Of a stretch of 34,137 nucleotides of DNA, positions 12,041 to 33,939 are shown piece after piece (position 1 is the stretch's first letter; every line of letters begins with the position of its first letter). The position numbers were made by a program, and so were the translations under genes. The notes under the pieces are model-generated. The model worked only from the letters and a program-made list of their open reading frames with translations. It made no database searches and was not told the DNA's origin. Source of the stretch: Candidatus Sulfotelmatobacter sp. (GTDB lineage Bacteria > Acidobacteriota > Terriglobia > Terriglobales > Acidobacteriaceae); contig JADGNQ010000056.1 of the NCBI GenBank assembly GCA_017883385.1, forward strand, positions 1 through 34,137, in the 5' to 3' direction.

Positions 12041-12200
12041 AGCTGTCAGCTATCAGCCGTCAGCTCTTAGTTGGCGGCTTCCCCGTTCAAAACAGGCAAC
12101 GCGCACGAATAGAGGACCCTTCCAGCGAAGCCAAGGGCCTTTCCGGCACACAGTGATTGTGACGTCTTGGCTGAGAGCTGAAGGCTGACAGCTGAAAGCT
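12041..12200. repeat. Heptamer-phased imperfect inverted repeat (locus A)
   Basis: The arms 12041-12070 and 12171-12200 are reverse complements at 26 of 30 positions, separated by 100 nt. The right arm is four consecutive 7-mers of consensus CTGANAG starting at 12171, 12178, 12185 and 12192, and a fifth related word at 12199 overlaps the stop codon (TAA on the minus strand) of the gene at 12204. The left arm is built of 7-mers of the form TCAGCNN at 12046, 12053 and 12060. No transposase lies between the arms and I see no target-site duplication. Confidence 0.85.
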
Positions 12201-12203
12201 GCC

Positions 12204-13877
12204 TTAGAACGTGAAGGCTACGCCGCCGCGGACGGAGCGGGCGGACTGGACCAGGTAGACGGTTTGGCCGTCCTGGCCGAGGACGGGAACGTAGCCCTGC
12301 GCCAGGAGGTTGCGGAGGTCAATGATGGCCTCCATGTGGCCAGCGAGGAATCCCATGCTGGGGATGGGCTGGCGGATGAAGACGTTGAGGAAGGGGTCGC
12401 TCTGTCCGGGAGACGAGTTAAACATGTCGACGGGGGTGATGGCAGAGCCATTGACCCACCGGTAAGAGGCGATCCAGCGCGTGTGGGCGCGCGGGAGAGT
12501 TCCGCTGAACTTGGCGGCGACGGCATGACGGCGCTGGGTGCTGATCCATCCCTGGGCATCCTGCAGAGGGACATCGGGCTTCGAGAGATCAAGAACGCCG
12601 CCGAAAGCATAGTCGAGAGTGGCGGTGAGATCGGTCGAGAATTTGTGCTGCAACACGACGCGCAGTCCGTTGGTATCGAGGGTCTTGCCCGCGTAGCTGA
12701 ACGTGCCGGAGGAAACGTCAGGCAGGAGGAAGCCGCCAGCGGCAGTGGCTTCTCCGATTCCGGTCAGGGCAGGGTCGGTGACGCGATCGGAAAACACGGC
12801 GACCTGCACGTTGTTCTTCCCTAGCCGCCGGGACAGGCTCAGTTCCTGATGATGAGCGTGCTCGACCCTGGGGGAGAAAGCCATCAGGCTGACGCGTGGA
12901 TTCGACTCGCTCAGGTCCGCGGGCGAGGAATCGAAACCCTTCTCGGAGCGCAGGTCGGGACGGGAAGTGGCGTAGTCGTATTCCAGAACAGTGTTGGGCG
13001 AGAGGTGGAGATCGGCCGAGCCGTAGGGGCGAAACGCGGTGACGTGGCCGAGGAACTGGATGGTCTGAAGCTCGCTGCCAAACTTGAACTCGAGAATGTC
13101 GCCGACGGAAAACTGGTCGCCCGCGGAAAGAGCCAGCGCCTGCAGAGCGGCGTTGTGCAGGTTGGGATCGGAAGCGGCGAAACGGCGCACGGTCAGGGCA
13201 AGTGACGGTTGAGAGCCGTTAAGCATGCGGCGGGAATAACCGGCGCGCAGAACGGCGGCGGGCAGGCCTTGTCCGTAGCCGACGTTGCCGGTGAAGGCAA
13301 GGTGGCCGTCGGAGAAAATCGAGCGCTCCAGGGTGAAGCCGGTGCTCATGCCCGATCCGCTACCGTAACCGCCGGCGGCTGACCCGCCGAAGAAGGAGAG
13401 CGTGCCGCGCAATTCGTGGCCCTGGTTTTCGGCGAGGGCGGGATCGTTGAAGATGCGAAGAATAGGGCGGTTCGCGACCGAACGCAGCGTCCACTTCCAG
13501 TCGTCGTCATCGGGAAGGGCTCGAACGGGGCCAAGCTGCATGACACCGAGCAACGTGCTCAGGGTGACGTTGACGTTGATGCTGGCGCCGGCGCGCAGGC
13601 CAACTTTCTCACGCAACGCGGGCAGGAAGGACGGAGCTGTGACTTTGAGGGTATAGAGGCCGGGCAACAAACCGTTTGCGGTGTAGTAGCCGGCGCCGTC
13701 GGTGAAGACCGTGAAAGTGCGATTGGCAGCGCCGAGAATCTGCACGACGGCGCCCATCTGGGGATCGCCGGTGACATTGCGAACGTATCCCGAGATCGCT
13801 CCGGGCCGTTCAGCGGCCCAAACGGGGAGCGATAATCCCAACAGAATAACCCAGGTTCCGAGCTGTCGCAGTCTCAC
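12204..13877 (-). CDS. Outer-membrane barrel protein with carboxypeptidase-regulatory-like N-terminal domain
   Basis: A 557-aa protein. The signal peptide covers about residues 1-22 (WVILLGLSLPVWA-AE). An Ig-like carboxypeptidase-regulatory domain follows (about residues 26-110, PGAISGYVRNVTGDPQMGAVV and GLLPGLYTLKVTAP). The rest alternates like beta strands with glycine-rich turns and ends in a terminal aromatic (GVAFTF), as in outer-membrane barrels. It is half the size of the two Oar-like receptors and lacks their plug motifs (LDG.D, VTKSGTN), so TonB-dependent transport is not assured. The start is a GTG at 13877 with a G-rich AGGGGGTGGGG tract just upstream. It lies 34 nt downstream of the GWxTD gene on the same strand, so the two are probably co-transcribed. 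No terminator is seen at its 3' end; instead, repeat locus A begins 3 nt past the stop. Confidence 0.78.
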   Translation of the reverse strand: MRLRQLGTWVILLGLSLPVWAAERPGAISGYVRNVTGDPQMGAVVQILGAANRTFTVFTDGAGYYTANGLLPGLYTLKVTAPSFLPALREKVGLRAGASINVNVTLSTLLGVMQLGPVRALPDDDDWKWTLRSVANRPILRIFNDPALAENQGHELRGTLSFFGGSAAGGYGSGSGMSTGFTLERSIFSDGHLAFTGNVGYGQGLPAAVLRAGYSRRMLNGSQPSLALTVRRFAASDPNLHNAALQALALSAGDQFSVGDILEFKFGSELQTIQFLGHVTAFRPYGSADLHLSPNTVLEYDYATSRPDLRSEKGFDSSPADLSESNPRVSLMAFSPRVEHAHHQELSLSRRLGKNNVQVAVFSDRVTDPALTGIGEATAAGGFLLPDVSSGTFSYAGKTLDTNGLRVVLQHKFSTDLTATLDYAFGGVLDLSKPDVPLQDAQGWISTQRRHAVAAKFSGTLPRAHTRWIASYRWVNGSAITPVDMFNSSPGQSDPFLNVFIRQPIPSMGFLAGHMEAIIDLRNLLAQGYVPVLGQDGQTVYLVQSARSVRGGVAFTF

Positions 13878-13911
13878 TCCACCCCACCCCCTGGGGGGAA
13901 TTCGCAGGGAG

Positions 13912-15672
13912 TTACTCTACTGCAAACATCGCCGACGGATCAATCGTCTGCTTGGAGACGTTGTCGTTCACCTTGATTTCGATCTTGTAGATGCCGGGTT
14001 GCAGATTGGCAGCCGCGATCGACTTTTGCAAGGTCACCTGTTCGCCGACGTTGCCCATGGTATCGGTGGACTCGGTTTTCTGGACCACGGATTTGCTGGT
14101 TGCAACGTTGGTGATGTTGTATTCAAAAGTGGCGGAAGGCTTGTGCGTCTTCTCGTCCACGCCGAGATTATAGACCTGCATCCAGAAATTCAGCTTCTGG
14201 TCTTTATCTTTTTTAAAAAGAGCCGGCTTGCCGTCGGCGGGGGCGACGCGGGGCCGGACCTTGGTGGTGCCGATGACGAAACTGCCGGTGCCGATCGCTT
14301 TGGTCGGAACCGCTTCCATCTGGTCGGCGACGATCAGAGTGGAGGTTGCCAATTTGTCTTCGGAGAAGTCAGGAACGACGATGCTGTGGCTCCATACGCC
14401 TTTACGGTCGCCATTCACGTCTTTCACGGCGATGTTCAGCTTGTAGCGGCCGGGACGCAGGGGAAGCGCCTTCCAGTAGACGGAGGCGTTCTCGGCGGTG
14501 CGGGGCAAAAGCTCGGCGGGCACATCGACCTGTACCGTGTCTTCGAAGGTCTGGACGATTTTGCCGGTCAACGTGGTCAGGCGAGCGAAGATGTTTACGG
14601 TTCCGCGCTGCACTCCATCTTTGTTGACGAACGTGATGTCGCGATTCTTCATCTGGATGGTCACCGGGACCAGGACGGTGTCACTGGTGACTTTCACGAA
14701 GTCCGAGCGCACATCGAAGGGCATCGGATTGAGGATCATCTTGGAGCTGACAGCCTCTTCGAGATCCTTGAACTTGACCGGAGGAGCGGCCTGCAGTTTG
14801 GCGAACTGCTCCAGGCGATCGAACTGCTTGGTCTGCAGCATGCTGCTCTCGGGGCCGGTGCCCAGGCGCTCCATACCGTTGCCAGTAAAGCGCGACGCTT
14901 TACTCGACATTCCCATCTGCTCCCAGAAGGTCAAGCCGGCGTTCGGCGTCATCAGCAGAGCGTCCTTTTCGGAGCGGTCCATGGTCATGTGATACTCGCC
15001 GCACATGCAGGTGTCGACGAACTCCATGATGATTTCCTGGCCGATGCCATCGAGGTAGCGGTAGCGCCAGGTTTCAAAGGGGAAGGTCGAGGTCTCGCCG
15101 CCGCCTTCTTCCATGGGGCGTTCGTAGGTTCCTCCCGAGGGATGCGACTCGATCTCATCGGGCTTGCCGTACATGATGTACATGCGGCCGCGGTCGGTGC
15201 GCCATCCCGGGACGCCGGCAGCGAAATGCTCGTTGGCGTAGGCGATGCGCTGGTAGTGCTCTTCCTTATATTCGTTCTCTTCGGTATCGGGGGTAGGGTC
15301 GCGACGCTGCCAGAAAGCTTCGATGAAATTGTCGCGCTCTTCATCGTTCGAAAGCTGCTTGAAGGCCGCCCGCTCTTCGTCCGAGATGATCCAGACGACG
15401 TCCTGTTCGAGCCACTTTTTGTAGGAGCCCTTGATTTCCTTGGAGTAGTCCTTCATCTGCTGCTTTTTCTTCTTGGCTTCGATGGGACGCTTCAGGGGGT
15501 CTGGAGCATCGTCGGCGGGCTGCGCTTTGGCAGGGCTGGCCGTATCCTGGGTGGGCTTGTCAGTGGCCGACTTCTGGTCTTGGCTATCCTGGGCGACGGC
15601 GCCGGAGGCCATTAGGCCCACGGATACCAGCAAGATTCGGAGAAGCGCTTGATATGAAGTAACCCGGAACAT
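13912..15672 (-). CDS. GWxTD-domain secreted protein
   Basis: A 586-aa protein. The signal peptide covers about residues 1-27 (LLRILLVSVGLMASGAVA-QD). A low-complexity Asp/Lys/Pro linker follows (about 28-72). The GWxTD domain begins near residue 80 (YKKWLEQDVVWIISDEERAAF) and contains the defining motif GWRTD at 156-160, followed by RGRMYIMYGKPDEIE. The C-terminal half is beta-rich, with two to three Ig-like segments (about residues 310-586; for example LRPGRYKLNIAVKDVNG and LQPGIYKIEIKVND). GWxTD proteins occur in Acidobacteriota and Bacteroidota-type genomes and their function is unknown. The ATG has CAGGAG 8 nt upstream. A candidate promoter is at 15708-15737. It probably forms an operon with the barrel gene downstream, which suggests a joint envelope role. 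Confidence 0.88.
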   Translation of the reverse strand: MFRVTSYQALLRILLVSVGLMASGAVAQDSQDQKSATDKPTQDTASPAKAQPADDAPDPLKRPIEAKKKKQQMKDYSKEIKGSYKKWLEQDVVWIISDEERAAFKQLSNDEERDNFIEAFWQRRDPTPDTEENEYKEEHYQRIAYANEHFAAGVPGWRTDRGRMYIMYGKPDEIESHPSGGTYERPMEEGGGETSTFPFETWRYRYLDGIGQEIIMEFVDTCMCGEYHMTMDRSEKDALLMTPNAGLTFWEQMGMSSKASRFTGNGMERLGTGPESSMLQTKQFDRLEQFAKLQAAPPVKFKDLEEAVSSKMILNPMPFDVRSDFVKVTSDTVLVPVTIQMKNRDITFVNKDGVQRGTVNIFARLTTLTGKIVQTFEDTVQVDVPAELLPRTAENASVYWKALPLRPGRYKLNIAVKDVNGDRKGVWSHSIVVPDFSEDKLATSTLIVADQMEAVPTKAIGTGSFVIGTTKVRPRVAPADGKPALFKKDKDQKLNFWMQVYNLGVDEKTHKPSATFEYNITNVATSKSVVQKTESTDTMGNVGEQVTLQKSIAAANLQPGIYKIEIKVNDNVSKQTIDPSAMFAVE

Positions 15673-16100
15673 GAGAGGGACTCCTGCCAGACAACCGTCG
15701 TCTGCCTATTCTAGGCCCTAAAGTCGAGTGAAAGCAAGGTTAAGTCGTGCCCCGAGAACTAACTAAAACGAACCGCAACCTGTCTAGTTTAGAAGCCGGG
15801 GGGAAGGCCGGGAGTTGCCTGAGCCGGTGACGAATCCGTGAGTGGCCGGATGGGAAAAGGCTATAATGGGAGGTTCCGGGGGCAGTAGCTGCAACTCTCC
15901 TTCGTAACGGGTCTCGGCCACCACTGCAATTCCTGATCGGGAACTTTCTCGGCACCAGGATCGTAACAGAGGGTGTGTGTCCGTCACCCTGATCGAAGCA
16001 GCTCAGGGGCCATCTGTGTAAGTCCAGGTCGTGGCGAAGGTTGGCCTGCTTCATTTGGCTTACTTCTAAGGAGAAATAACCCCGGACAGCGACGGGAATC
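15673..16100. other. Divergent intergenic region between the GWxTD gene and the adaptor gene
   Basis: This divergent promoter region contains no gene. The leftward promoter candidate is at 15708-15737. For the rightward gene, a perfect TATAAT occurs at 15862-15867, but no good -35 lies 16-18 nt before it. If used, it would give a leader of about 230 nt. That leader has small hairpins but matches no riboswitch I know. AAGGAG at about 16070 is 24 nt from the ATG, too far for a normal SD. Confidence 0.55.
15708..15737 (-). promoter_or_regulatory. Candidate promoter of the GWxTD gene
   Basis: On the minus strand, TTGCTT (15732-15737) and TAGAAT (15708-15713) are separated by 18 nt, giving a leader of about 28 nt before the ATG at 15672. 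The -10 matches consensus at 5 of 6 positions; the -35 is weaker. Confidence 0.4.
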
Positions 16101-17498
16101 ATGAAAGCTTGGAAAAAAATCGCAATTGGCGCCGGCATTGTAGTTCTGGTCGCAATCATTGTCGGTTTCACCGTTCATCAGAGCAGCAAGAATGTAGTGA
16201 CGGTGCAGACCGGGAAGGTGCTGCGACAGGATCTGGCGACGGTGGTGAGCGCTTCGGGTGAAATCAAACCGAAGACTTACGTAAATATCGGCGCGAACGC
16301 CTACGGAAAGATCACCCACCTGTACGTGAAGGAAGGCGATCAGGTAAAGAAGGGGCAATTGCTGGCACAGCTCGAAAACGTGCAGTCGGCGGCGGATGTG
16401 AATGCGAACGAAGCCTCGGTACAGGCAGCGCAAACGGATGCGATCGCAGCCGAGGCCAACCTGAAGACCGCCCAGGCCGACTTGCTACGCGCCCAAGCTG
16501 ATTACGACCGCAACAAGCTCGACTGGGAACGCGCGCAGAGCCTGTTCAAGGATGGACTGATCGCGAAGTCAGACTTCGACAGCCGCAGGAATGCGTGGGC
16601 GACGGCGGATGCCGGATTAGTGCAGGCGCAGGCTCGAGTGGCGCAGGCCAAGGCGCAGAATGACTCCGCCGACAAGCATGTGACCCAAGCCCATGCGAAT
16701 CTGACCCGCGTCACCGACGTGCTGCAGAAGACGACGTATGCCGCGCCTTATGATGGCGTCGTCACCAATTTGCCAGTGCGTGAGGGCGAGTCAGTCGTCA
16801 TCGGAATTCAGAATGCGCTGGGCAGTACGTTGATGACGATTGCCGATATGGCGATCATCACAGCCGAAGTGAAGGTGGATGAGACCGACATCGTGAACGT
16901 ACGGTTGGGTCAGTCCGCTGAGGTCACCATCGACGCCATTCCGAAGAAGATTTTCCACGGCACGGTTTCTGAGATTGGCGACAACGCGATCGTGCGCTCC
17001 AGCGGGGTGTCGACTTCGCAATCGACGACGGCGAGCGAAGAAGCGAAAGATTTCAAAGTCGTGGTGACGTTGAACGATCCGCCAAAGGACTTGCGTCCGG
17101 GACTTTCGACGACAGCGAAGATTACGACCGCGACTCGCAGCAACGCTCTGGCGATTCCGATTCAGGCGCTGACTCTGCGTAGCAAGGATCAGATCGAACA
17201 GCAGAATAATCCGCCGGGCTCGGTGCATGCTGCACCACCCGCGGCCAAGGAAGTTGCATCCAAGACCAAAAAAGGGGATGACGTGCAGGGAGTGTTCGTC
17301 ATCCGCAGCAAGAAGGCGGTATTTGTTCCGGTCGCCACCGGCATTACTGGGACGACCGACATCGAAGTGCTGGACGGAGTGAAAGAAGGGGACGAGGTCA
17401 TTACCGGGAGTTACAAGATCCTGCGCACGCTGCGTCCCGGGAGCAGCGTGAAGATCGACAATACGGTCCCCAAGAAGGAAGACGAAGAAGCTTCATAA
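16101..17498 (+). CDS. Periplasmic adaptor of a MacAB/RND-type efflux system (HlyD family)
   Basis: A 465-aa membrane-fusion protein. One N-terminal membrane segment (about residues 7-25, IAIGAGIVVLVAIIVGF) anchors it in the inner membrane. A lipoyl/barrel-sandwich half follows (GKITHLYVKEGDQVKKGQLLAQLE, in two parts, about 70-95). A long Ala/Gln-rich coiled-coil hairpin spans about residues 100-205. The second lipoyl half is AAPYDGVVTNLPVREGESV, and beta-barrel and membrane-proximal domains (about 250-450) follow. Family members bridge an inner-membrane transporter to an outer-membrane channel. It is upstream of a MacB-type ATPase gene in the same direction, 156 nt away, with repeat locus B between them. 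The ATG at 16101 has only a weak GACGGG-like SD. No permease or TolC-type channel gene lies in this unit. Confidence 0.9.
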   Translation: MKAWKKIAIGAGIVVLVAIIVGFTVHQSSKNVVTVQTGKVLRQDLATVVSASGEIKPKTYVNIGANAYGKITHLYVKEGDQVKKGQLLAQLENVQSAADVNANEASVQAAQTDAIAAEANLKTAQADLLRAQADYDRNKLDWERAQSLFKDGLIAKSDFDSRRNAWATADAGLVQAQARVAQAKAQNDSADKHVTQAHANLTRVTDVLQKTTYAAPYDGVVTNLPVREGESVVIGIQNALGSTLMTIADMAIITAEVKVDETDIVNVRLGQSAEVTIDAIPKKIFHGTVSEIGDNAIVRSSGVSTSQSTTASEEAKDFKVVVTLNDPPKDLRPGLSTTAKITTATRSNALAIPIQALTLRSKDQIEQQNNPPGSVHAAPPAAKEVASKTKKGDDVQGVFVIRSKKAVFVPVATGITGTTDIEVLDGVKEGDEVITGSYKILRTLRPGSSVKIDNTVPKKEDEEAS

Positions 17499-17522
17499 CC
17501 TTAGCTGGCTTAGCACGTCCAA

Positions 17523-17612
17523 ATAGGGATCAGGGTCTAGGGGTTAGGGCTGGAAGCATCGGAGAAGACCAGGCAGCGATGCAGAGCAATGCTAGTCCCT
17601 AGGCCCTGATTG
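17523..17612. repeat. Heptamer-phased imperfect inverted repeat (locus B)
   Basis: The left arm is four consecutive 7-mers of the type NTAGGGN/TCAGGGT (17523, 17530, 17537, 17544). The right arm is three 7-mers of the type CTAGNCC/CTGATTG (17592, 17599, 17606). The segments 17529-17546 and 17593-17610 are reverse complements at 15 of 18 positions. The loop contains a nested perfect 6-bp stem, GCATCG/CGATGC (17556-17561 with 17577-17582). It lies entirely between the adaptor and ATPase genes. Confidence 0.82.
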
Positions 17613-17654
17613 GAAAGATCGGAGAGGTCAGTGGCACCGGACCAGGAGAAAAAC

Positions 17655-18413
17655 ATGGCAACCGCAGAAGTCATCAGTATGCCCACCACCGCGAACCTAG
17701 CCCCGCCGGAATCATGCATGATCGCGGCCGAGGATCTCTGGAAGACCTACGACATGGGCTCGGAGCAGCAGGTGCACGCCCTGCGCGGGGTCAATCTGCG
17801 CATTCAGCGCAACGAGTATGTCGCCATCATGGGTCCTTCCGGCTCGGGCAAGTCGACGCTGATGAACCTGATCGGCTGCCTCGACACGCCTTCGCAGGGC
17901 AAGTACTGGCTGAACGGCCAACTGGTCAGCGAGCTCGACGACGATGAACTGGCCCGCATCCGTAACAAAGAGATCGGATTCGTATTCCAGACTTTCAACC
18001 TGCTGGCCCGGGCGACGGCGCTGCACAATGTGGAACTGCCCTTGATCTACGCCGGGATTCCGACCGAGCAGCGAATGGAGCGCGCCAAGGGTTCGCTGGC
18101 AGCGGTGGGCATGGAAGCCCGCATGAGCCACAAGCCGAATGAACTCTCCGGCGGTCAGAGGCAGCGGGTCGCAATCGCGCGCGCGCTGGTGAACAAGCCC
18201 TCCATCATTTTGGCCGACGAGCCTACCGGCAATCTGGATTCGCAAACCGGCATTGAAATCATGGCGCTGTTTGACCGGCTGCACGCCGAAGGAAACACGA
18301 TCATTCTGGTCACGCACGAGGGCGATATCGCCGAGTATGCCCACCGGGTTATTCACATCAAGGACGGAGTAATCGCCAGCGACCAGAGCAAGGGCCCGGG
18401 GCAACGCAGCTGA
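17655..18413 (+). CDS. ABC transporter ATP-binding protein, MacB/LolD type
   Basis: A 252-aa cytoplasmic ATPase with a complete set of catalytic motifs: Walker [10 protein letters not shown] (60-68), Q-loop glutamine at 112 (FQTFNL), signature LSGGQ (164-168), Walker B IILADEP (184-190) with the catalytic glutamate, D-loop, and switch histidine 221 (VTHEGD). The LNxIGCLD and EPTGNLD variants are typical of the MacB/LolD/FtsE group, which powers mechanotransmission rather than classical transport. The ATG at 17655 has AGGAG 6 nt upstream; an in-frame extension to 17610 lacks an SD. It partners the adaptor upstream. A clear terminator follows, so the nearby permease gene (19053-21701) is in another transcription unit. 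Confidence 0.93.
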
Positions 18414-18437
18414 GCTTCGACGGTTCTGGATTTTATG

Positions 18438-18465
18438 ACGCCCAGCCTAAACCGCTGGGCGTTTT
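18438..18465 (+). terminator. Rho-independent terminator of the adaptor-ATPase unit
   Basis: A 9-bp stem (18438-18446 with 18454-18462) has a 7-nt loop, is followed by a T run (18462-18465), and begins about 25 nt after the ATPase stop codon. Confidence 0.88.
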
Positions 18466-24410: not shown

Positions 24411-25640
24411 TTACGGCGTTGTGCTGATCGTCTTCACTGCGGCGGTGTCAGACGGCAGGCCGGGGCGCGCGACGAAGAAGTTGTGGTCGTACATGTTGCG
24501 ATAGATGCGGCCGGTAATCTCGGCGGCTTTAGGACCGAAGGTGGGGCGTCCACCCTGCAGGAAAACAACCACCACGACGCGTCCGATGCTGGTGTTGGCG
24601 TAGGAGGCGAACCAACCGAAGCGGGTTCCGGCGTGCGAGCAGGTTCCGGTTTTGCCCAGGATTTCTTCTTCGTTGAAATTGAGGCGGAGGCTACGGGCAG
24701 TGCCATACTGTACCGCACCGGCCATGCCGTCAGAGATTTCGGGAATGAGTGGAGCGATGTCGAGTTGCCGCTTGACGCGGGGCTGAAAGTTCGCCACTTC
24801 TTCGGGAGAAGCCGGATGCTGCAAGTAGTAGAGCGTTCCACCGTTGGCAATCGCGGAGACCATCGCGCCCAGTTGCAGCGGCGTCATGGAAACGCCCTCG
24901 CCGTAAGAGCACATCTTGCCTACGCCGCCGAGCCTAGTGGGAATCGCTTCGTCGGGATAGCTGCCCAGTTGCTCGCCGGCAATGTCGTAACCGGCAAGTT
25001 CGCCGAGTCCGTATTCGTGAGCGTAATAGGCGACCTTCTCAAAACCGAGCTTGCGTCCGAGCGCTTCGAAATATGCGTTATTCGAGTGCGCCAGGGCTGT
25101 GGTCATGTTCATACGGCTGCGGCCGCCGAGAACGACCTGAGTTTCTTTCGAGACCACACCCTCGCTGAGCGCGGCCAGGGCCACGGAAAGCTTGATGGTA
25201 GAGCAGGGCTGTGCGCCGCTGGAAAGAGCCAGCTTCTGGTTCACCATGGCCAGCACACGTCCGCTAGTCGGTTCGATGGCGACAACCGTGCCGTTCATGT
25301 TGCCCAGGGCGTCGATAGCCGCCTGGCGCACGATGGGATCTTCGCCGGCAGTCACATCACCCGCTGTGATGTCTGCGGCAAACGAGCTCATGTGAAAGCG
25401 CTCGTGATAGCGGTGGCGCGTGCCCACGGAAGCCTGCGTGAGATTCGCGCTGCGGCTGCGCGCCAAATGGCGAATGCGGCGCCGGGTGCGCTGGCTCTCA
25501 CTGATCTTTTGTGATTTCGATTTCGCCGGGGCGTGCGTGTTGATATGCGCGGCCCAGCTCACGCCGGCCAGAGGCAGAGCAACCAGAAGAGCGGCCAGAA
25601 AACCAAAAAACAGACGAAGAAGACTTGTTCCCTTGGACAT
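24411..25640 (-). CDS. Stand-alone penicillin-binding transpeptidase (class B-like)
   Basis: A 409-aa protein. The N-terminal hydrophobic segment (about residues 7-30) is a signal anchor or signal peptide. A basic, Ser/Arg-rich linker (about 38-83) leads into a penicillin-binding transpeptidase domain with all three active-site motifs: STIK (147-150, nucleophile Ser147), SNN (186-188) and KTGT (330-333). It lacks the dimerisation/pedestal domain of FtsI or PBP2, being only about 410 aa against roughly 600. It may cross-link peptidoglycan or act as a regulatory DD-peptidase in the periplasm. Placement just downstream of ftsZ in the same direction suggests a division link. The ATG at 25640 has GGGGAG about 14 nt upstream, which is longer than ideal; an in-frame start at 25688 has no SD. 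Confidence 0.85.
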   Translation of the reverse strand: MSKGTSLLRLFFGFLAALLVALPLAGVSWAAHINTHAPAKSKSQKISESQRTRRRIRHLARSRSANLTQASVGTRHRYHERFHMSSFAADITAGDVTAGEDPIVRQAAIDALGNMNGTVVAIEPTSGRVLAMVNQKLALSSGAQPCSTIKLSVALAALSEGVVSKETQVVLGGRSRMNMTTALAHSNNAYFEALGRKLGFEKVAYYAHEYGLGELAGYDIAGEQLGSYPDEAIPTRLGGVGKMCSYGEGVSMTPLQLGAMVSAIANGGTLYYLQHPASPEEVANFQPRVKRQLDIAPLIPEISDGMAGAVQYGTARSLRLNFNEEEILGKTGTCSHAGTRFGWFASYANTSIGRVVVVVFLQGGRPTFGPKAAEITGRIYRNMYDHNFFVARPGLPSDTAAVKTISTTP

Positions 25641-26015
25641 CTTGTTGAATTCACTCCCCAGAATCTGACTACTTCGATGCACGCACAATGCCAGCGGGCG
25701 GTAACCTCAGCGATTATCGCTCAACTTCCTGATAGTACGAGTCTTAGCGCATTTCTGGCAACGATAAAGTTTCGATGGCTAGAAACGTTAATATTCATCT
25801 AACCCATTACAAGACAAGTACATACGAGCGCATTACCTCGGTTCAGACCCCTTCGGTAATGGGTTACCAGGTTACTGGAAAGGTACTTCCCAGTGTGAAA
25901 AGCTTTTCCTAACTGACCTACGAGCTTTGAGCCATGAGCTTTGAGTCATGAGCGGTCGCGGGAGCTCACGAGCTCTCTCGAGGCTCTTAGCTCGCAGCGC
26001 TTAGCTCGTGGCTCT
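25641..26015. other. Intergenic region between ftsZ and the transpeptidase
   Basis: This gap holds no gene. It contains a relatively AT-rich stretch (25730-25830), where the transpeptidase promoter is likely. There is a small palindrome, GCGAT-T-ATCGC, at 25710-25720. A perfect 11-bp inverted repeat, TAACCCATTAC (25800-25810) with GTAATGGGTTA (25856-25866), also lies here. Repeat locus C occupies 25922-26012. Confidence 0.6.
25922..26012. repeat. Heptamer-phased imperfect inverted repeat (locus C)
   Basis: The left part is five consecutive 7-mers of the type GAGCNNT/GAGTCAT (25922, 25929, 25936, 25943, 25950), of which the first two words repeat almost exactly. The right part is five 7-mers of the type TCNNAGC/TCGTGGC (25978, 25985, 25992, 25999, 26006) in register. 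GAGCCATGAGC (25929-25939) and GCTCGTGGCTC (26004-26014) are reverse complements at 10 of 11 positions. The next heptamer contains the ftsZ stop codon. Confidence 0.82.
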
Positions 26016-27317
26016 CTACATCACTTCGTTGCGCTTGCGCAGAAACGCGGGGACGTCGAGATCATCCTGCTCGAAGTTGGTGACGATGGCGCCGCGCATG
26101 GTGTCGAGCGAAATGACGTCGGCGGCCACGCGCTCCGATGCATGAGCCATCGGTGCCGGAGCCATGTCGTCTACGTAGGCGCGGTCGTCCGTGGCGGCCG
26201 GCTGGGACATGATGTGCTCGGGCCTCGGCTCGGGATCGCGCGGGCCCGCGCCGTCGGGAAAGTCCATGTCAGCATCAAGCGCGGCGGCGTGCGTGGCCGA
26301 GAACGACGTGTGTGTTTCCTGAGGGCGATGCCGCGCCGACCGGACTTCGCGGAAACCGGTAGCGATGACGGTGATCTTCACCGCGTCTTTCATCTTCTCG
26401 TCCATCACGGCGCCAAAGATTATATTTGCGTCTTCATGGGCGGCGCTCTGGATGATCGAACAGGCTTGCTGCACTTCGGCCAGTTTCAGCGAAGAGGAAC
26501 CGGTGATGTTGATGAGGATGCCGCGCGCGCCGTCGATGGCTCCGGCTTCGAGCAGCGGAGACGCGATAGCCTTTTGAGCGGCCTCGATCGTGCGCTTTGC
26601 GCCGCTGGCTGAGGCCGTGCCCATGACGGCATAGCCCATGCCGGCCATGATCGTCTTCACGTCGGCGAAATCGCGGTTGATGATGCCCGGGATAGTGATG
26701 ATGTCGGAAATCCCCTGCACGCCTTGACGAAGAATGTCGTCGGCGATGCGGAAAGATTCAAAGAAGCCGGCGTCCTCCGCCACTGCGAGGAGCTTTTCGT
26801 TGGGGATAACGATAGTGGTGTCGACGGACTCCATTAGTTCGGCGATGCCGCGCTCGGCCTGCGCCATGCGGCGTTTGCCTTCGAACGAAAACGGCTTGGT
26901 GACGACTGCGACCGTGAGGGCGCCCATCTCGACGGCCAGGGAGGCAATGATGGGGGCGGCGCCGGTGCCAGTGCCACCACCGAGGCCGGTGGTGACGAAA
27001 ACCATGTCGGCGCCTTCGAGGGCTTCGATGATTTTGTCGGAATCTTCGAGTGCGGCCTTGCGGCCTACTTCGGGATTCGCACCTGCGCCCAAGCCATTCG
27101 TCAGCTTCACGCCGAGTTGCAGCTTCACTGGCGCGTGCGACATACGCAGCGCCTGCAGGTCGGTGTTGGCAACGATGAATTCGATGCCCTCGACGCCGGC
27201 ATCAATCATGCGGTTGACCGCGTTGCCGCCGCCGCCGCCCACGCCGATGACCTTAATCTTGGCGTCGTTGCGGGCCTCTTCGTTGAAGCTAATGCGAATG
27301 CTTGAGTCGTTTGTCAT
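26016..27317 (-). CDS. ftsZ: Cell division GTPase FtsZ
   Basis: A 433-aa tubulin homologue that polymerises into the Z-ring at midcell. The sequence shows the N-terminal nucleotide-binding loop [17 protein letters not shown] (21-37), the tubulin signature GGGTGTG (113-119), and the T7 synergy loop NRDFADV (214-220) supplying the catalytic aspartates. A variable acidic/Pro linker covers about 330-415. The conserved C-terminal peptide [15 protein letters not shown] (last 15 residues) binds FtsA and other partners. I chose the ATG at 27317 because AGGTGG lies 5 nt upstream; the GTG at 27326 falls inside that SD. It is co-directional with ftsA but separated by a 154-nt gap filled with a repeat. 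Confidence 0.98.
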
Positions 27318-27342
27318 TTTGTCCACCTGATTGAGTTACGTT

Positions 27343-28692: not shown

Positions 28693-28716
28693 GCCTTATG
28701 AATTCCTCGACTGCAA

Positions 28717-30075
28717 TTAATTTGGACTCGGGTTCACTGGCTGCTTCGCAATCGCTGCACTCGGTTTCGGAATCGCCGGATGCGCTGCCGCCGACGAAGC
28801 GGATTGCACCGGTTTTTTGCCTTCCGATTTCTGTGATGCCCCACTCGTTTTCGGGCCTGCAGGCTTCGGGCCCGGCGCGGAAGTTTTCGCCACAACTTTT
28901 TTTGGAGCAGGCCCCTTGGCCTTGGCCTTAGCGGTCGCCTTCTTGACCTTCGGTCTGGCCACCGGCTTTTTTGCAGCAGCCGACTTCGGATCGAGTTTTT
29001 TCTCGGTCAGCTCAAATGCCGGCTTAGGAAGAGTCCGATCATGCGGAATCATGCGCGTGATCAGCGACGCCGGCTTCACGCCCGCGGCCGCTGCTGCCTT
29101 CGCCGCTGCGGGCCCGAGCGCGGCCTGCTTCGGCCGTCCTTCCATGTCAGGATTGACGATCACCTGATTGTCGTAGCGCAGGTTCACCGACTCCAGCTTC
29201 TGAAACTGTTGCCGCCATTCCTGCACATGGCTCACGTAGGTCTTGTAACGCTTGAGATATTCCGATGAACCGAGTTCCACCAACACGTCGCCCGCGGGAT
29301 CGTTCACCCGCACCTTCAGATTCTCGAGATCGGAGAGATCCACTTCGCTCAGGTCCTGCGAATAGCGAGCGCCTCCGGAATCCAGGTCTTGTACGAGCTC
29401 GTTGTAGGCCCTCATGCGCGGGGCCCGCGTGGAGAGCGGCTCGCCGGGATTCATCCCAAGAATTACTGGGAAGGAGTATTTGTGCTTCTGCGGCAAGTCC
29501 ATCAGCGTGCCGCCGGCATCGATCAGGGAAATACGCGGGCCGACACGGGCGAACGCCACGGGAGTGCGCTCGTGAATTTCCACCTTCAGCCGGTTGGGTA
29601 CGAAGCGCATGACGCTGGCCGATTCGACCCAGGGAATCTGTTCGAGTTGCGTCTTCTGCTGCGCCAGCGGCACGAAGAAAATGTTGCGTCCGATGTCGGC
29701 GCCCATCACTTCCATGATTTGGGCCTTGGTCACATTCTGCATGCCGGTGATTTCGATGTTGTCGCTCGATTCCACGCGGAAGCGCCACGAGCGTTCACCG
29801 TATTCATACAAACCGGCGGCGATGACAGCGACGACGCACAGAATTGCGGCTGCCAGGGATGCCCATAGCAAGCGGCTTGCAGTTTTCTTGGGCAGTGAAC
29901 TGCGGCGGGCGGAGACACGCTTTTGCCCGCGCAGGAAAGGCGATTCCTCGGCTACATCCAGGTCGACCAGGCGCGCGTCATCGAGCTCCTCGCGCGCGGA
30001 TTCAATGGGAGAACGCTCGGCGCTGGATGGGTACAACTCTTCCTGCAAGATGGTGCCGCTTGATTTCCGCGCCAT
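28717..30075 (-). CDS. ftsQ: Cell division protein FtsQ with an unusual Lys/Ala/Pro-rich C-terminal tail
   Basis: A 452-aa bitopic inner-membrane protein. The N-terminus is cytoplasmic and charged (1-65). One membrane helix lies at about 69-89 (LLWASLAAAILCVVAVIAAG). The POTRA domain is about 106-175 (NIEITGMQNVTKAQIMEVMG; PNRLKVEIHERTPVAF), followed by the FtsQ beta domain (about 180-310, ending YDNQVIVNPD). FtsQ normally ends near here. This protein continues for about 140 residues with a low-complexity tail (311-452) very rich in Ala, Lys and Pro, for example KVKKATAKAKAKGPAPKK, which would lie in the periplasm. FtsQ scaffolds FtsB/FtsL in the divisome. The ATG at 30075 has no convincing SD. 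The 24-nt gap to ftsA indicates an operon. Confidence 0.95.
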   Translation of the reverse strand: MARKSSGTILQEELYPSSAERSPIESAREELDDARLVDLDVAEESPFLRGQKRVSARRSSLPKKTASRLLWASLAAAILCVVAVIAAGLYEYGERSWRFRVESSDNIEITGMQNVTKAQIMEVMGADIGRNIFFVPLAQQKTQLEQIPWVESASVMRFVPNRLKVEIHERTPVAFARVGPRISLIDAGGTLMDLPQKHKYSFPVILGMNPGEPLSTRAPRMRAYNELVQDLDSGGARYSQDLSEVDLSDLENLKVRVNDPAGDVLVELGSSEYLKRYKTYVSHVQEWRQQFQKLESVNLRYDNQVIVNPDMEGRPKQAALGPAAAKAAAAAGVKPASLITRMIPHDRTLPKPAFELTEKKLDPKSAAAKKPVARPKVKKATAKAKAKGPAPKKVVAKTSAPGPKPAGPKTSGASQKSEGKKPVQSASSAAAHPAIPKPSAAIAKQPVNPSPN

Positions 30076-30428
30076 CAGTTCAGGTCAGTTGTCGTGAGGA
30101 ATCGCTGAGCCTTCAAACTATAACTTTATTTCTCGAATTGAGATAGACAAAAGATTGGTTCTTTTGCACAGGCAGGAACCCGGCTGGGAACGAGTTGGCC
30201 GGAGTGGCGGCATTCTGCCCTCCGAGCGCAAGCAAGGGGGTGGAGGAACCAGTCGCGTTGCTCGTGGAATAGAGAAGCCCGTTCCTCCCCTATGCCGTCG
30301 CTTCCGCTCCGGCTCCGGTCGGAATGACAAGGCATCGAGGATGGCAGCGATTCGCCGGAAAAAAACGCGGGCGCGGCTTGTTTTCCGCGCCCGTCATTCC
30401 CAGGAGGAAGAAGCTCGATCTCGGTTCC
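30076..30428. other. Intergenic region upstream of ftsQ, with palindromic repeats and a terminator
   Basis: There is no gene. 30116-30160 is AT-rich and probably holds the ftsQ promoter, but the hexamers are not clear. 30150-30345 is a palindrome-rich block: GATTGGTTC near 30152 pairs with GAACCAGTC near 30245 at 8 of 9 positions, and on the minus strand there is a GTCATTCCGA module leading into CGGAGC/GGAAGC hexamers (about 30303-30330). GCATTCTGCC at 30210 is also found in the palindrome cluster at 8044. The terminator of the upstream gene occupies 30359-30393. Confidence 0.6.
30359..30393 (-). terminator. Rho-independent terminator of the 181-aa secreted-protein gene
   Basis: A perfect 9-bp stem CGGGCGCGG/CCGCGCCCG (30368-30376 with 30385-30393) is followed, in the gene direction after CG, by a run of seven T (A on the plus strand, 30359-30365). 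It lies 36 nt after the stop at 30429 and separates that gene from ftsQ. Confidence 0.9.
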
Positions 30429-30974
30429 TTAAATCGGGCCAGAGCCCGACTCGATGTGAATCTCCGGAGCCACCGGCATTGTGATCCTCGGCAGTCGCGG
30501 AATGTTCACGCGAACCCGGGGACACGCGGAGACTTGGGGCGTGCGAAGGACCACTTGGGTGAGGGCCACTGCCGGGACTCGGATGTGAGCCGTCTGGGCT
30601 TCAACCCGAGCCTGAATCTGGGCTTCCAGGCGCTCCCGGTTCGCCTCCAGCCGCACTAATTGGGCCTCTCGCCGGTCGGACATGACTTCGAAACGGTTGA
30701 ATCCCGTGTCTGTAGTTGCGATCTCTGTTTGAACCCGCGCCAACGCTGTGGACAATGGGCAGGAGGCCGTCTCGTTTCGCTCGGTGACGAACTGCGCCTC
30801 GGAGAGGAACCGGTCGGCGCGTCCGCTGGCCAGCGCCAATACTGCCGCCGAGCTGTGCTCGACTCGATCCGCCACCGCGTGCGCCCACTGCAGGCCGCCA
30901 TCGTGGTAGCTGGCGTTCAACCCGGCTGCCAGTACGCCTGCCGCCAGCCATCCCCATGCTTGTGTCGTTTTCAT
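30429..30974 (-). CDS. Hypothetical secreted protein (181 aa) between murC and ftsQ
   Basis: I do not recognise this family. The N-terminus (about 1-22, MKTTQAWGWLAAGVLAAGL) looks like a signal peptide. The middle (about 85-130) is a charged helix likely to form a coiled coil (RREAQLVRLEANRERLEAQI). The C-terminus is rich in Val, Pro, Arg and Ile (CPRVRVNIPRLPRITMPVAP). Two cysteines, in ETASC and SACPR, could form a disulfide. The ATG at 30974 has AAGG close upstream. It has its own strong terminator before ftsQ. A periplasmic structural or envelope role is only an inference from the signal peptide. Confidence 0.7.
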   Translation of the reverse strand: MKTTQAWGWLAAGVLAAGLNASYHDGGLQWAHAVADRVEHSSAAVLALASGRADRFLSEAQFVTERNETASCPLSTALARVQTEIATTDTGFNRFEVMSDRREAQLVRLEANRERLEAQIQARVEAQTAHIRVPAVALTQVVLRTPQVSACPRVRVNIPRLPRITMPVAPEIHIESGSGPI

Positions 30975-31124
30975 CGCCTTAACCCCTTCTGGCTGATAGA
31001 CGAAGGGCGTTTCGAACCGTTAGCAAGGAAAGATACGGAGTGAGAGTCGGCAAGGTTCCGGCTGAGCGGGCGAGGCAACCGCCCGGCAGAAGCGCATAGT
31101 CCAACGGAGGGGGCTGCCTTGCGG

Positions 31125-32255
31125 TTAGCAGGGACCCGAAATCACGTTCTTGACGTTGGAGAACGAGTTTGGAGTGACAGTATTGGTGCCGTGAATGTCA
31201 ACGATCCCCCACAAAGCGTCGTTGACGAGGTTGTGAATCACGGTATTGCCCGTACCGGTGCAGTTGAAGCTGATCCCTGCTCCGTCCTTGAGATTCGGAA
31301 ACAATAAGTTGTTCTCGACCAGGTTGTTGCTCGCGCTGATGACGATAGCCGAACCAGCTAGTGATACCTGGTTTGACTTTATCGTATTGGACGTGCCGAG
31401 CGACCATATCCCCACGGTGAAATTCTCGACCGTGTTGCCGGTTACCGTCGAATTCGCCGGGAAAGCGATTCCAACTCCAGCAGATACTCCCGCCGGGGCG
31501 GGATGCGTGATTACGCGGTTGTACAAGATCGAGCCAGTAGAACCCTGTACATCAATCCCACCGTATACCGGAGTGCCACTGAAAGAGGTCGAACTAATGA
31601 CCGAGTTCGACGTGATGTTGACAGTCATACTGGGAGGAACGACTCTTCCGTTCGTACGTATGCCCTCCGCGTCGAAGTCGTGAACAGTGCTGTTTGCGAC
31701 GCTGACCGTCTTGGCGGGAGCTGTAGTGCCTTCGAGAAAAATCCCAAAGCCATTTCCGTTTCCCTTCTGCCGGTAGGTCGCTACATTGGTGACCGTTCCC
31801 GATGAGTTCTGGTAGTAGATGCCTTCGATCCAGCCGTCGAGATTACCGTTGGCGCTACTATTCCCATTCACCGCGAGGTTGCTGATATTGACCAGTCCAG
31901 ACTCAGTACCTTGTACCAGGATCTGGAAAAACATGGCCGCGCCGTTGGCAGGCGCTATTACGCTCTTGGTCAATCCTCCGGGTGGCACGGTAACTGTCGG
32001 ATTGGCGGCGTTCCCAGCCTGCACTCCGCGCAACGTTAGCGGTTGAGAAATCGTTACCTGTTCCGGGTATGTTCCGGGACAGATCAGGATTGTTGAGCCA
32101 GCCGATACACTGACGACGGCTTGCGATATCGTGGAATACGTTTTGAGATGCGGCAGGCATGCGCCTACAGCCACAGTCTGCGTGACGGCGGCAGGCGCCA
32201 GAAACAGTATCGCTACAACGGGGATCAAGGAGGCGCGGACGGATGCCATGTTCAT
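31125..32255 (-). CDS. Secreted right-handed parallel beta-helix protein
   Basis: A 376-aa protein. The signal peptide covers about residues 1-26 (LIPVVAILFLAPAAV-TQT). A beta-helix core begins near CLPHLKTYSTISQAVVSVSAG, with the conserved TILICPGTYPEQVTISQPLTL entry seen in pectate-lyase-like and NosD-like repeat proteins. Many N-rich rungs follow (NSTVTGNTVENFTVGIWSLG, NTIKSNQVSLAGSAIVIS, NLVENNLLFPNLKDGAGISF). It ends in GPC. Such folds bind or cleave polysaccharides or form surface scaffolds; no catalytic set could be identified. The ATG at 32255 has AGGAG 6 nt upstream. A strong sigma-70-like promoter lies at 32333-32361, so it is transcribed independently of murC. Confidence 0.83.
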   Translation of the reverse strand: MNMASVRASLIPVVAILFLAPAAVTQTVAVGACLPHLKTYSTISQAVVSVSAGSTILICPGTYPEQVTISQPLTLRGVQAGNAANPTVTVPPGGLTKSVIAPANGAAMFFQILVQGTESGLVNISNLAVNGNSSANGNLDGWIEGIYYQNSSGTVTNVATYRQKGNGNGFGIFLEGTTAPAKTVSVANSTVHDFDAEGIRTNGRVVPPSMTVNITSNSVISSTSFSGTPVYGGIDVQGSTGSILYNRVITHPAPAGVSAGVGIAFPANSTVTGNTVENFTVGIWSLGTSNTIKSNQVSLAGSAIVISASNNLVENNLLFPNLKDGAGISFNCTGTGNTVIHNLVNDALWGIVDIHGTNTVTPNSFSNVKNVISGPC

Positions 32256-32332
32256 GGGATACTCCTGAGCTGAACTTGACTGGGCCTCTCGCCGACAACC
32301 CAACGGGGAGTTCGGGTGGGTCGAGGGTGGCT

Positions 32333-32361
32333 ATTATGTACGCTTCAAAGTCGCGAGTCAA
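32333..32361 (-). promoter_or_regulatory. Strong sigma-70-type promoter of the beta-helix gene
   Basis: On the minus strand, TTGACT (32356-32361) and CATAAT (32333-32338) are separated by exactly 17 nt, and both hexamers match consensus at 5 of 6 positions. Transcription would start near 32326, giving a leader of about 70 nt. Confidence 0.68.
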
Positions 32362-32431
32362 CCGTGCGGAGCGTAAGAACTCGATTGCTGCTGAAGTAGG
32401 GGATAGAGGCTTGGGCCCCCGGCTCGGACGA

Positions 32432-33850
32432 TTAGGCCTTCGCATGCACAGCCCGATCCGTTAGCTTCTCCAGAAGCATGGAGCCCAACTGAGACACGCT
32501 GCCTGCACCCAGGGTGAGGATCATGTCGCCGTCTTGGGCGGCGGCCACGGCTGAATTCACAGCTTCGCCGGAGGAACTCACATGCCGCGCCGCCTTTCCG
32601 CTCTTCTCCGCGATCCGCTGCGCCAGGATTTCGCCCGTGATGCCCTCGATGGGCTTTTCGCTGGCGGCGTAGATGTCGAGGACGAATAGCGAATCGGCAT
32701 CGGCGAAGGCGGTGGTGAATTCTTCCATCAGGTCGCGGGTGCGGGTGTAGCGGTGGGGCTGGAAGATGACGTGCACCTTGCGAAAGCCGCACTGGCGCGC
32801 CGCGGCCAGCGTGGCCTTGATCTCGGTGGGATGGTGGCCGTAGTCGTCGATGACGCTCACGCCGGCGGCGCGTCCGCGCAACTGGAAGCGGCGGTCGACG
32901 CCGCGGAACTGGTCGAGCGCGGCACGGATCGCATCGACGCTAACGTCGAGGCCCACGCCCACGGCAATCGCCGCGGTCGCGTTCAGGACGTTGTGCACGC
33001 CGGGGACATGCAGCGTGAATTCGCCCAGATCATTTTTTCGATAGCTGACGCGAAAATTGTTCAGCGGCGGGTGCCCCATTTCTCGCGCGTCGTTTGCGCG
33101 AGAAGGGGGGATTTTGATCAGAAAGTCGGAACCACGCCTGGTGCCATAGGTCACGGTGCGCCGCTGCACATCGGGCAACAGGCGCCGCAGCAGCGGATCG
33201 TCGTTGCAGGCGACGATCATGCCGTAGAACGGCACGCGGTCCATGAAGTCGAGGAACGTTTTCTTCACGTCGCGCATATTGCGGTAGCAGTCCATGTGCT
33301 CGCGGTCGATGTTGGTGACAACCGACAAGATAGGCGACAGCTTCAGAAAGGAGCGGTCGCTCTCGTCGGCTTCGGCCACCAGATATTGTGATTTGCCGAG
33401 GCGCGCGTTCGACCCCATGGCGTCGACGCGGCCGCCGACTACGACAGTGGGATCGAGCCCGCCCGCAGCCAGCACCGCCGCTACCATGGAGGTCGTGGTC
33501 GTCTTACCGTGCATGCCGGCGATGGCGATGCCGTACTTCAGTCGCATCAACTCGGCCAGCATCTCTGCGCGCTGGATGACTGGGATGTGCAACTTGTGCG
33601 CTTCGGTGACTTCGGGATTCTCCGTTGCGATGGCGGAACTAGTGACGACGACCTCGGCTCCGGCGATGTTTTCGGCGCTGTGTCCTTCGAAAGTGGTCGC
33701 GCCCAGGCTGGCTAAACGTTGCGTGACGCCGGAACTTTTCAGGTCAGAGCCCGAAACCTTGTAACCGAGATTCAGCAGCACCTCGGCAATACCGCTCATG
33801 CCGATGCCGCCGATGCCTACGAAATGAATGCGCTGAATTTTGGCGAACAT
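32432..33850 (-). CDS. murC: UDP-N-acetylmuramate--L-alanine ligase MurC
   Basis: A 472-aa cytoplasmic ligase that adds L-alanine to UDP-MurNAc using ATP, the first step of the peptidoglycan stem peptide. The sequence shows the N-terminal Rossmann motif HFVGIGGIGMSGIAEVL (9-25), the ATP-binding loop AGMHGKTTTTS (111-121), the central-domain EADESDRSFLKLSP and TNIDREHMD, and the C-terminal-domain DDYGHHPTEIKATL and QPHRYTRTRDL. Length and motif order are normal. The ATG at 33850 is preceded by CCTAGATTT rather than an SD. The upstream gene is murG. The intergenic DNA, including the expected SD position, is an arm of repeat locus D. Confidence 0.97.
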   Translation of the reverse strand: MFAKIQRIHFVGIGGIGMSGIAEVLLNLGYKVSGSDLKSSGVTQRLASLGATTFEGHSAENIAGAEVVVTSSAIATENPEVTEAHKLHIPVIQRAEMLAELMRLKYGIAIAGMHGKTTTTSMVAAVLAAGGLDPTVVVGGRVDAMGSNARLGKSQYLVAEADESDRSFLKLSPILSVVTNIDREHMDCYRNMRDVKKTFLDFMDRVPFYGMIVACNDDPLLRRLLPDVQRRTVTYGTRRGSDFLIKIPPSRANDAREMGHPPLNNFRVSYRKNDLGEFTLHVPGVHNVLNATAAIAVGVGLDVSVDAIRAALDQFRGVDRRFQLRGRAAGVSVIDDYGHHPTEIKATLAAARQCGFRKVHVIFQPHRYTRTRDLMEEFTTAFADADSLFVLDIYAASEKPIEGITGEILAQRIAEKSGKAARHVSSSGEAVNSAVAAAQDGDMILTLGAGSVSQLGSMLLEKLTDRAVHAKA

Positions 33851-33854
33851 AAAT

Positions 33855-33939
33855 CTAGGGGTCAGGGATCGGGGCCAGGGGTCAGCAAGATCGATCTCGG
33901 TTTACTGATCCCTGACCACTGACCCCTGGTCCCTGCTCT
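33855..33939. repeat. Heptamer-phased imperfect inverted repeat (locus D) spanning the murG-murC junction
   Basis: The left arm is five 7-mers (33855, 33862, 33869, 33876, 33883) built on AGGGG/CAGGGN. The right arm is five 7-mers of consensus CTGNYCC starting at 33905, 33912, 33919, 33926 and 33933. The arms are roughly reverse complements (about 22 of 30 positions, allowing one gap). The 15-nt core includes the perfect palindrome AGATCGATCT (33888-33897). The right arm is inside the murG reading frame, and the left arm ends 4 nt from the murC start codon. Confidence 0.85.

Follow-up and report, generated by a model that had tools for sequence, protein, structure and literature searches.

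The window analysed here, a stretch of 34,137 nt from Candidatus Sulfotelmatobacter sp. (contig JADGNQ010000056.1), has hairpins at four gene junctions, A to D, and in A, C and D these are inverted pairs of degenerate heptamer arrays. Heptamer-array hairpins are real and common in the genus. The analysis establishes their architecture, their excess over chance, their preference for co-directional gene junctions, their anchoring at stop codons, a near-constant order in which the array of a word (W) precedes its inverted counterpart (W'), and, at orthologous junctions, a turnover that affects the word and even its length.

The genus sample comprised 2.37 Mb from three species: the window's own genome, G000 (552 kb), G012 (1.42 Mb) and G027 (400 kb). 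It holds 38 inverted heptamer elements, about 16 per Mb, with a median arm of 31 nt and a median loop of 30 nt (range 2-215 nt). Such counts are lower bounds, because the finder misses B and some pairs that have both arms in one segment (e.g., G012C1 112660, 528523 and 649298). In intergenic DNA alone, 36 elements were found against none in 30 Markov-3 simulations (10 per genome, three genomes), which bears out the claim of a first-pass annotation of the window that these structures are not random. Inverted elements at periods of 5, 6, 8, 9, 10, 11 and 13 nt number 0-4 per genome, the 4 being of period 9 in G000.

Self-similarity at a lag of 7 nt was also scored directly. In the 552 kb of G000 it yields 16 segments with a score of at least 12, where three Markov-3 simulations average 1.0, and lags 8, 10 and 11 yield 2, 1 and 0. 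A sample of 620 kb from G012 presents 27 lag-7 segments against 0.3 expected, and the enlarged sample of 1.42 Mb presents 52, with 13, 4, 2 and 23 at lags 8, 10, 11 and 13. For G027 there are 27 at lag 7, and 6, 1 and 2 at lags 8, 10 and 11. In the window itself, four lag-7 segments reach a score of 11, compared with none in one Markov-1 simulation. Lag 14, the double of 7, equals lag 7 in height. Lags in multiples of three are also high, yet segments at lags 6, 9, 12 and 15 are mostly coding and those at lag 7 mostly are not; seven of 95 arrays with a score of at least 12 are coding.

Two side observations concern other arrays and the contig ends. Direct arrays of period 13 occur in the G012 and G000 samples, mostly in intergenic DNA (23 with a score of at least 12 in the 1.42 Mb of G012); an inverted partner was found for 0 of 18, or for two in a looser count. 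One of 50 contig starts lies in an array (12 of the 50 read N), compared with 5 of 3000 interior windows, numbers too few to use. The start of G000 contig C4 (L036 1-95) and those of G001 contigs C54 and C196 lie within heptamer arrays that are long and perfect, which hints at assembly breaks caused by such long arrays.

With genes called by our own simple hexamer caller, 33 of the 38 elements lie at co-directional junctions, 2 at convergent and 2 at divergent ones, and 1, D itself, at a contig edge. Regions of at least 60 nt number 775 at co-directional, 164 at convergent and 262 at divergent junctions, and relative to these the co-directional excess has a Fisher p of 8e-4. In 28 of the 33 co-directional elements the 5' arm starts between -19 and +13 nt relative to the upstream stop codon, whereas random placement of the elements within their own regions gives a mean of 15.4 stop-anchored elements and a maximum of 23 in 5000 trials. 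The gap from the element to the next start ranges from 0 to 412 nt: the 3' arm ends at most 13 nt before that start in 14 of the 33, and 21-412 nt before it in the other 19. Enrichment at co-directional junctions and at stop codons, which the first-pass annotation had put forward for testing, is found in both respects.

Word turnover and the order of the arms

Most words in the genus fit the loose 5'-arm pattern RGYNNYY, set by eye, with exceptions such as GAGCNNN, and they fall into about ten families, also grouped by eye. The leading word differs by species (AGTTCTC in G000, AGCTTCT in G027). AGTTCTC, AGCTNCT, AACGACY and others recur within and between genomes. Whole-genome matches of AGCTNCTAGCTNCTAGCT number 80 in G012, 76 in G027 and 3 in G000; this pattern is matched in 36 of 41 genomes of the genus, its reversed control producing 1 match. 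Arrays of AACGACY are present in 24 of the 41 genomes, compared with 3 of 41 for the reversed control. Across the phylum, AACNACY yielded 785 matches in 20 of 297 genomes (a single genome contributing 504), and its reversed control, which itself has period 7, yielded 210 matches in 27 of 297. This search thus points to a patchy occurrence of heptamer arrays in the phylum and does not mark AACNACY as special.

At the junction between murG and murC, 30 loci were fetched and 25 junctions could be measured, the other 5 not being measurable. Classified by eye, 2 of these have heptamers (G000 and G022), 11 the 10-nt word CACGGATTTN and 4 an 8-nt word; GATCCTTCGACTGCG-type sequence is present in 5, and the remaining 3 fit no such category. 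A hairpin score of at least 12 is reached in 18 of the 25, against 30 of 150 background junctions (sampled from 475) and 1 of 150 shuffled ones. G000 counts as a miss because its murG is cut by the contig end. The hairpins start -9 to +18 nt from the stop in 16 of the 18 cases, and they consist of words of 7, 8 or 10 nt or belong to a type without periodicity. That of the 10-nt word starts at the murG stop in many orthologues, e.g., L123, L127 and L134, and CACGGATTTN has only 6 matches to a simple two-unit pattern across the 2.37 Mb.

Between ftsA and ftsZ, a score of at least 12 is reached in 7 of 10 junctions of the genus and in 0 of 4 outgroup junctions (7 of 14 overall). Three of the seven hairpins have a 7-nt word, three an 8-nt word and one is of another type, and they start 2-14 nt past the stop. 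Words of 7 nt are found in G012, G011, G003, G008 (a single arm) and G005 (degenerate), the 8-nt word GTTTCAAA in G004, G001 and G002, and a different hairpin in G000. Octamer and decamer hairpins were covered at these two junctions and by a simple pattern count only. Octamer-array hairpins with the same inverted design as the heptamers were seen in L146, L133, L142 and L144 (murG-murC) and in L004, L005 and L006 (ftsA-ftsZ), with GTAATTTG-, TGAGTGAT- and GTTTCAAA-like words. The dispersed intergenic sequence CTCAGGATGAC has 52 matches in the three samples, 33 of them at co-directional junctions, and is present too at several murG-murC junctions.

Among 30 loci orthologous to junction A (one incomplete), CAGCNNT arrays occupy the same place in G000, G028, G025, G004 and G027, G007 has an array of AGGGGTC type and G040 a weak one; the remaining 22 have no lag-7 segment with a score of at least 9 within 200 nt. 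Some orthologous junctions of G012 and G027 have a common word (AACGACY, AGCTNCT). At one junction, named by eye as NADH-dehydrogenase-like, the arms are AGCTNCT in G027 and GGCTCTT/AGCTCTT in G012, and both arms have switched word together. These comparisons show that a hairpin and its place can persist while the word, and sometimes the word length, differs between species. The first-pass annotation had described the words as locus-specific: turnover at orthologues agrees with this, but strict specificity does not hold, since words recur within and between genomes and are common to some orthologues. Its expectation that orthologous junctions would have such structures is likewise borne out in part, as murG-murC and ftsA-ftsZ often keep a hairpin, whereas the element of A is kept in a minority and those of B and C in one or two species.

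Because an inverted pair reads alike on both strands, W-W' and W'-W are distinct arrangements. A scan of the GTDB collection with three AACNACY units followed by AAC, run without a control, matched at least 118 stretches, of which 80 loci were returned. A partner was taken as an inverted array with a score of at least 12 within 200 nt. The 89 AACNACY arrays in the returned loci have such a partner on the 5' side in 23 cases and on the 3' side in 0. These 23 arrays represent 20 elements, three having been seen from both arms, so the W-W' order prevails by 20 to 0. By record title, 13 of the 20 are cyanobacterial (four from one genome), 3 from Bacteroidota, 2 from Acidobacteriota, 1 from Clostridia and 1 from Kiritimatiellae. 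Counted by eye among the matches listed, pairs within 200 nt favour W-W' by 16:0 for AGCTNCT, 5:0 for AACGACY and 3:0 for AACNACY in the phylum. A recount of arms with at least 2 RGTNGTT or AACNACY units gave W first in 16 and W' first in 1 of 45 elements from the GTDB loci and G099; for the genus the figures were 5 and 0 of 38. When 5'-arm words of the 38 elements are paired at a distance of at most 1, the two words have the same orientation in 53 pairs and the opposite in 7. One orientation of each word family is nearly always the 5' arm. The only W'-first pair seen belongs to L265 4629-5278, from a termite-gut bacterium, where six heptamer arrays (AGTGGTT and its complement) lie in one intergenic stretch.

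The 5' arm often leans towards G+T. Its G+T fraction has a mean of 0.58 in the genus (26 above and 10 below 0.5) and of 0.69 in the GTDB and G099 loci (40 above, 5 below), where the selecting pattern favours such arms. It is above half in 7 of 7 octamer elements, and in 2 nonamer elements against 4 below. For 154 non-heptamer stems the mean is 0.53, with 64 above and 46 below.

Origin and possible role of the hairpins

The account that we favour, tentatively and a little short of calling it probable, is that these are post-stop hairpins, similar to repetitive extragenic palindromes (REPs), and that they have grown through 7-nt slippage combined with template switching. The array W, made of degenerate heptamers, starts at most a few nucleotides from the stop codon, and the inverted W' follows after a loop of 2-215 nt. 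Replication slippage in steps of 7 nt would grow and alter the arms, and template switching within the fold-back would make the inverted arm and keep it in the same word; the arms would thus shift jointly to a new word, without preserving the order of unit variants. Elements may persist past stops if the stem-loop is tolerated or useful at the RNA level, possibly in a role like that of REP or bacterial interspersed mosaic element (BIME) hairpins, i.e., protecting mRNA 3' ends and damping or separating the expression of neighbouring operon genes. Any RNA function is putative and unproven, and neutral tolerance of post-stop hairpins is compatible with the data.

Several results weigh against this account. 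Mismatches on the sense strand are G-U in 40 and A-C in 33 cases (p 0.48), i.e., without wobble excess; covariation by wobble pairs was rejected on this count, and selection on base pairs is not supported in the genus. Strict template switching would be expected to leave mirrored tracts, unless slippage erased them. With arms set without regard to complementarity, unit order in the three genomes is not mirrored (19.0 observed vs 18.9 shuffled, n=28); elsewhere, among loci of other taxa, it is mirrored only slightly (22.8 vs 21.6, n=28). The mirrored order of our first tests (in-register pairing of 0.85 vs 0.72 shifted; 20.3 vs 17.5) was discarded because the arms had been picked by complementarity, and in the genus it was gone once they were not. 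A common word together with a non-mirrored unit order fits arms that exchange or regrow units freely, and strict pairing less. Moreover, 70 arrays with a score of at least 10 have no detected partner, although in some of these the two arms fall in a single segment and escaped detection as a pair. Judged by eye, the element of junction B is present in G000 alone of 30 loci and that of C in G000 and G007, 2 of 12 same-genus loci, and the murG-murC and ftsA-ftsZ orthologues are mutually non-independent. Not every 5' arm is rich in G+T, and one pair, L265 at 5055, is W' first, in a six-array cluster with W blocks on both sides.

A purely neutral process seems somewhat unlikely. In it, arrays would arise at any site through 7-nt slippage and fold-back synthesis and would survive purifying selection only just past stops, where no other sequence is required. 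Much of the same evidence speaks for it: the lack of a G-U excess, the unmirrored unit order in the genus, the restriction of the B and C elements to one or two species, and a MurG tail lengthened by array sequence. It is harder to reconcile with elements that have long free intergenic space, with the next start up to 412 nt away, and are still mostly at the stop, or with the hairpin at 18 of 25 murG-murC junctions in unrelated words, though orthologues are non-independent. Insertion of mobile palindromes, either REP-like or resembling miniature inverted-repeat transposable elements (MITEs), after stops would explain why the same words occur at many loci, why G027 elements 114364 and 117008 have a common unit order and loops alike by eye, and why hairpin types supplant one another at murG-murC; the near-fixed W-W' order would be compatible with inherited ends. 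We nevertheless judge it quite unlikely, since there is no fixed element sequence and the loops are mostly unrelated. A MITE-like conserved interior was rejected after 31 loops of at least 18 nt were compared and only three pairs had 11-14 nt in common; 29 of these loops have one or two matches in all sequence compared, self included, and the other two 10 and 12. A link to REP-associated tyrosine transposases (RAYTs) was rejected as well, as the 2.0-3.3 kb fetched around each of five Y1 transposase (PF01797) genes contain no lag-7 array with a score of at least 10.

Intrinsic transcription terminators would account for strong hairpins past stop codons, but TTTT follows within 14 nt of the 3' arm in 1 of 33 elements and several elements lie between genes of apparent operons, which makes this reading very improbable. 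Just as improbable is a translational role akin to that proposed for TAACTGA repeats, in which the 3' arm gives or masks the ribosome-binding site of the next gene: 14 of 33 3' arms do end at most 13 nt from the next start, yet the other 19 end 21-412 nt away and two elements stand at convergent junctions. The heptamers of Xanthomonas and Nostoc, for which G-quadruplexes have been proposed, have the same period and near-stop position (Rehm 2015, PMC4692102), and the words of B and D are G-rich, but with four GGG tracts on one strand in only 2 of 38 elements a G-quadruplex explanation is scarcely credible for the class.

To return to slippage and template switching past the stop, PMC8794818 argues that the 5' half of RNA stems becomes richer in G and U through intrastrand template switching together with tolerance of G-U pairs, and that template switching, which makes and corrects stems, favours G-C and U-A pairs over the reverses. 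The G+T-leaning 5' arms agree in direction with that argument. A wider conjecture, which we hold to be unlikely, is that bacterial heptamer arrays of many phyla, including those of Xanthomonas, Beggiatoaceae and cyanobacteria, belong to a single class of post-stop hairpins in which the G+T-leaning arm comes first and its complement second, almost without exception. That order would be a trace left by directional DNA synthesis, either through intrastrand template switching or through other 3'-end fold-back synthesis, with 7-nt steps rewriting the word and selection keeping the hairpin at the stop. Within a word family, common descent could account for the order, which it does less easily across phyla; telomere-like addition at both break ends and GT-rich recombination signals, which were considered, would also lead to W-then-W'.

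The first-pass annotation had offered either a mutational process or a selected RNA structure, and the data favour a mixture, neither being proven. Since place and fold are kept while word and period change, it becomes testable whether stop-codon hairpins are selected or mutational, and the near-fixed arm order provides a handle on the generating process. The results also suggest that the quadruplex reading of the Xanthomonas repeats does not hold for the wider class.

The four elements of the window

The elements of the window and the genes beside them are as follows.

12035..12206, minus strand: element A; 5' arm 12206-12171, word CAGCNNT; loop 100 nt; 3' arm 12070-12035
12206-12204, minus strand: stop codon of the gene upstream of A
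12204..13877, minus strand: CarboxypepD_reg domain protein, upstream of A
8406..11822, minus strand: TonB-type outer-membrane beta-barrel protein, downstream of A
17528..17611, plus strand: element B; 5' arm 17528-17547, word AGGGNTC, weak heptad; 3' arm 17592-17611
16101..17498, plus strand: HlyD-type membrane-fusion protein, upstream of B
17655..18413, plus strand: ABC transporter ATPase, downstream of B
25915..26013, minus strand: element C, immediately past the ftsZ stop; aligned arms 26007-25977 and 25945-25915; word GAGCNNN
26016..27326, minus strand: ftsZ, upstream of C
24411..25682, minus strand: penicillin-binding transpeptidase domain protein, downstream of C
33852..33947, minus strand: element D; aligned 5' arm 33947-33912, word AGGGNTC, overlapping the murG 3' end; 3' arm 33885-33852, reaching the murC start
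33902..34137, minus strand: murG, 3' end, upstream of D; cut by the contig end; named from position only, without a family search
32432..33850, minus strand: murC (Mur ligase), downstream of D

Over the whole window, lag-7 self-similarity with a score of at least 9 is found in seven segments, which are both arms of A, C and D (12041-12063, 12170-12200, 25915-25951, 25983-26013, 33857-33884 and 33905-33937) and one other, within a gene (4024-4044). B is a strong hairpin in which heptad phasing is weaker: lag 7 is still the best among lags 4-11, but its arms score only 8 and 7, hence its being overlooked by the element finder. The folding z against dinucleotide shuffles is -2.40 for A (12041-12190, i.e., 150 of 172 nt folded), -5.08 for B, -3.16 for C and -4.44 for D. 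The first-pass annotation had reported four inverted heptamer junctions with four different words. Inverted heptamer arrays are confirmed at A, C and D, while B is a hairpin with weaker heptad phasing; the words of B and D belong to one family, AGGGNTC, leaving three families. It was right that all four junctions lie between genes on the same strand and that an arm touches or enters the upstream gene in A, C and D, the arms of A and C ending a few nucleotides from the stop codon and that of D entering murG.

At D, the tail of MurG (so named from position) reads GGIEESRDQGSVVRDQ up to the stop, and its last residues and stop are encoded by the array. In the murG relatives L123, L127 and L131 the stop comes one residue past EE (by eye), and in L125, L126, L128 and L149 it likewise lies within the hairpin. 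The array at D has taken the place of the murG stop region.

A search with Rfam at the gathering score gave 3 matches in the window and 0 at the four junctions. Two copies of Acido-Lenti-1 RNA (RF01687) lie at 8022-8067 and 8222-8268 on the plus strand, between two opposite-strand genes. Downstream of C, after ftsZ, a conserved non-coding block of the form AAGCTTTTCAC...GGTAAT...GGGTTA lies at about 25795-25910 on the minus strand. It was matched in 7 of 11 same-genus loci with a loose search expression, and is possibly the leader or promoter region of the next gene.

Comparison with known repeats

REP hairpins near stop codons affect translation. Short tandemly repeated repetitive (STRR) sequences of cyanobacteria are known as direct heptanucleotide repeats of fixed words. 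Both these and the genus elements are heptamer arrays, but the genus arms are inverted and their words varied, though the genus also has direct arrays that are unpaired. Among the matches listed from the GTDB collection, 13 cyanobacterial loci have inverted AACNACY pairs, and a single genome accounts for four of these loci. Literature searches on heptamer, tandem, palindromic or inverted repeats, most of them covering only the best 12-20 titles and with subscription journals mostly not covered, listed no paper on such elements in Acidobacteriota. Part of the picture has been described before; no published account was found of the variety of words, of the change of word and period at a given junction, or of an arm order that holds as a rule across phyla.

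The REP palindromes of the GTAG and CGTC families are intergenic hairpins that prefer unidirectional and convergent junctions and may supply a stop codon (PMC3733652). They have conserved sequences, tags and, for some, transposases, whereas the genus elements have no conserved sequence. A single conserved palindrome of 20-40 nt was not found in the genus, where arms vary by word family and loops are mostly unrelated; GTAG and CGTC tags were not searched for.

The TAACTGA repeats of Beggiatoaceae are described by MacGregor 2015 (PMC4679880) as intergenic direct repeats with one indirect repeat, related words being rare. They resemble the genus arrays in being heptameric and intergenic; we read the word as being of the W' type, and it lies mostly just upstream of starts. 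They are direct repeats of one word, and the genus arrays are inverted and of many words.

Rehm 2015 (PMC4692102) describes inverted pairs of GGGAATC heptamers near stop codons, between aligned open reading frames (ORFs) of Xanthomonas, so that the earlier statement that no named family has inverted arms was too strong. According to the same paper, heptamers are over-represented among bacterial simple repeats, as found in 2007, with a polymerase footprint the only hypothesis it cites, and three heptanucleotides of Calothrix are mentioned. Against this GGGNATC class of Xanthomonas and Nostoc, a G-rich GGGNATC-like word with quadruplex capacity does not characterise the genus elements (2 of 38 with four GGG tracts). 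The two have in common a 7-nt unit, intergenic tandem arrays, aligned ORFs and a position near the stop. They differ in that the GGGNATC words are G-rich and read as quadruplexes, whereas the genus elements form many families, mostly without quadruplex capacity, with turnover of word and period at orthologues.

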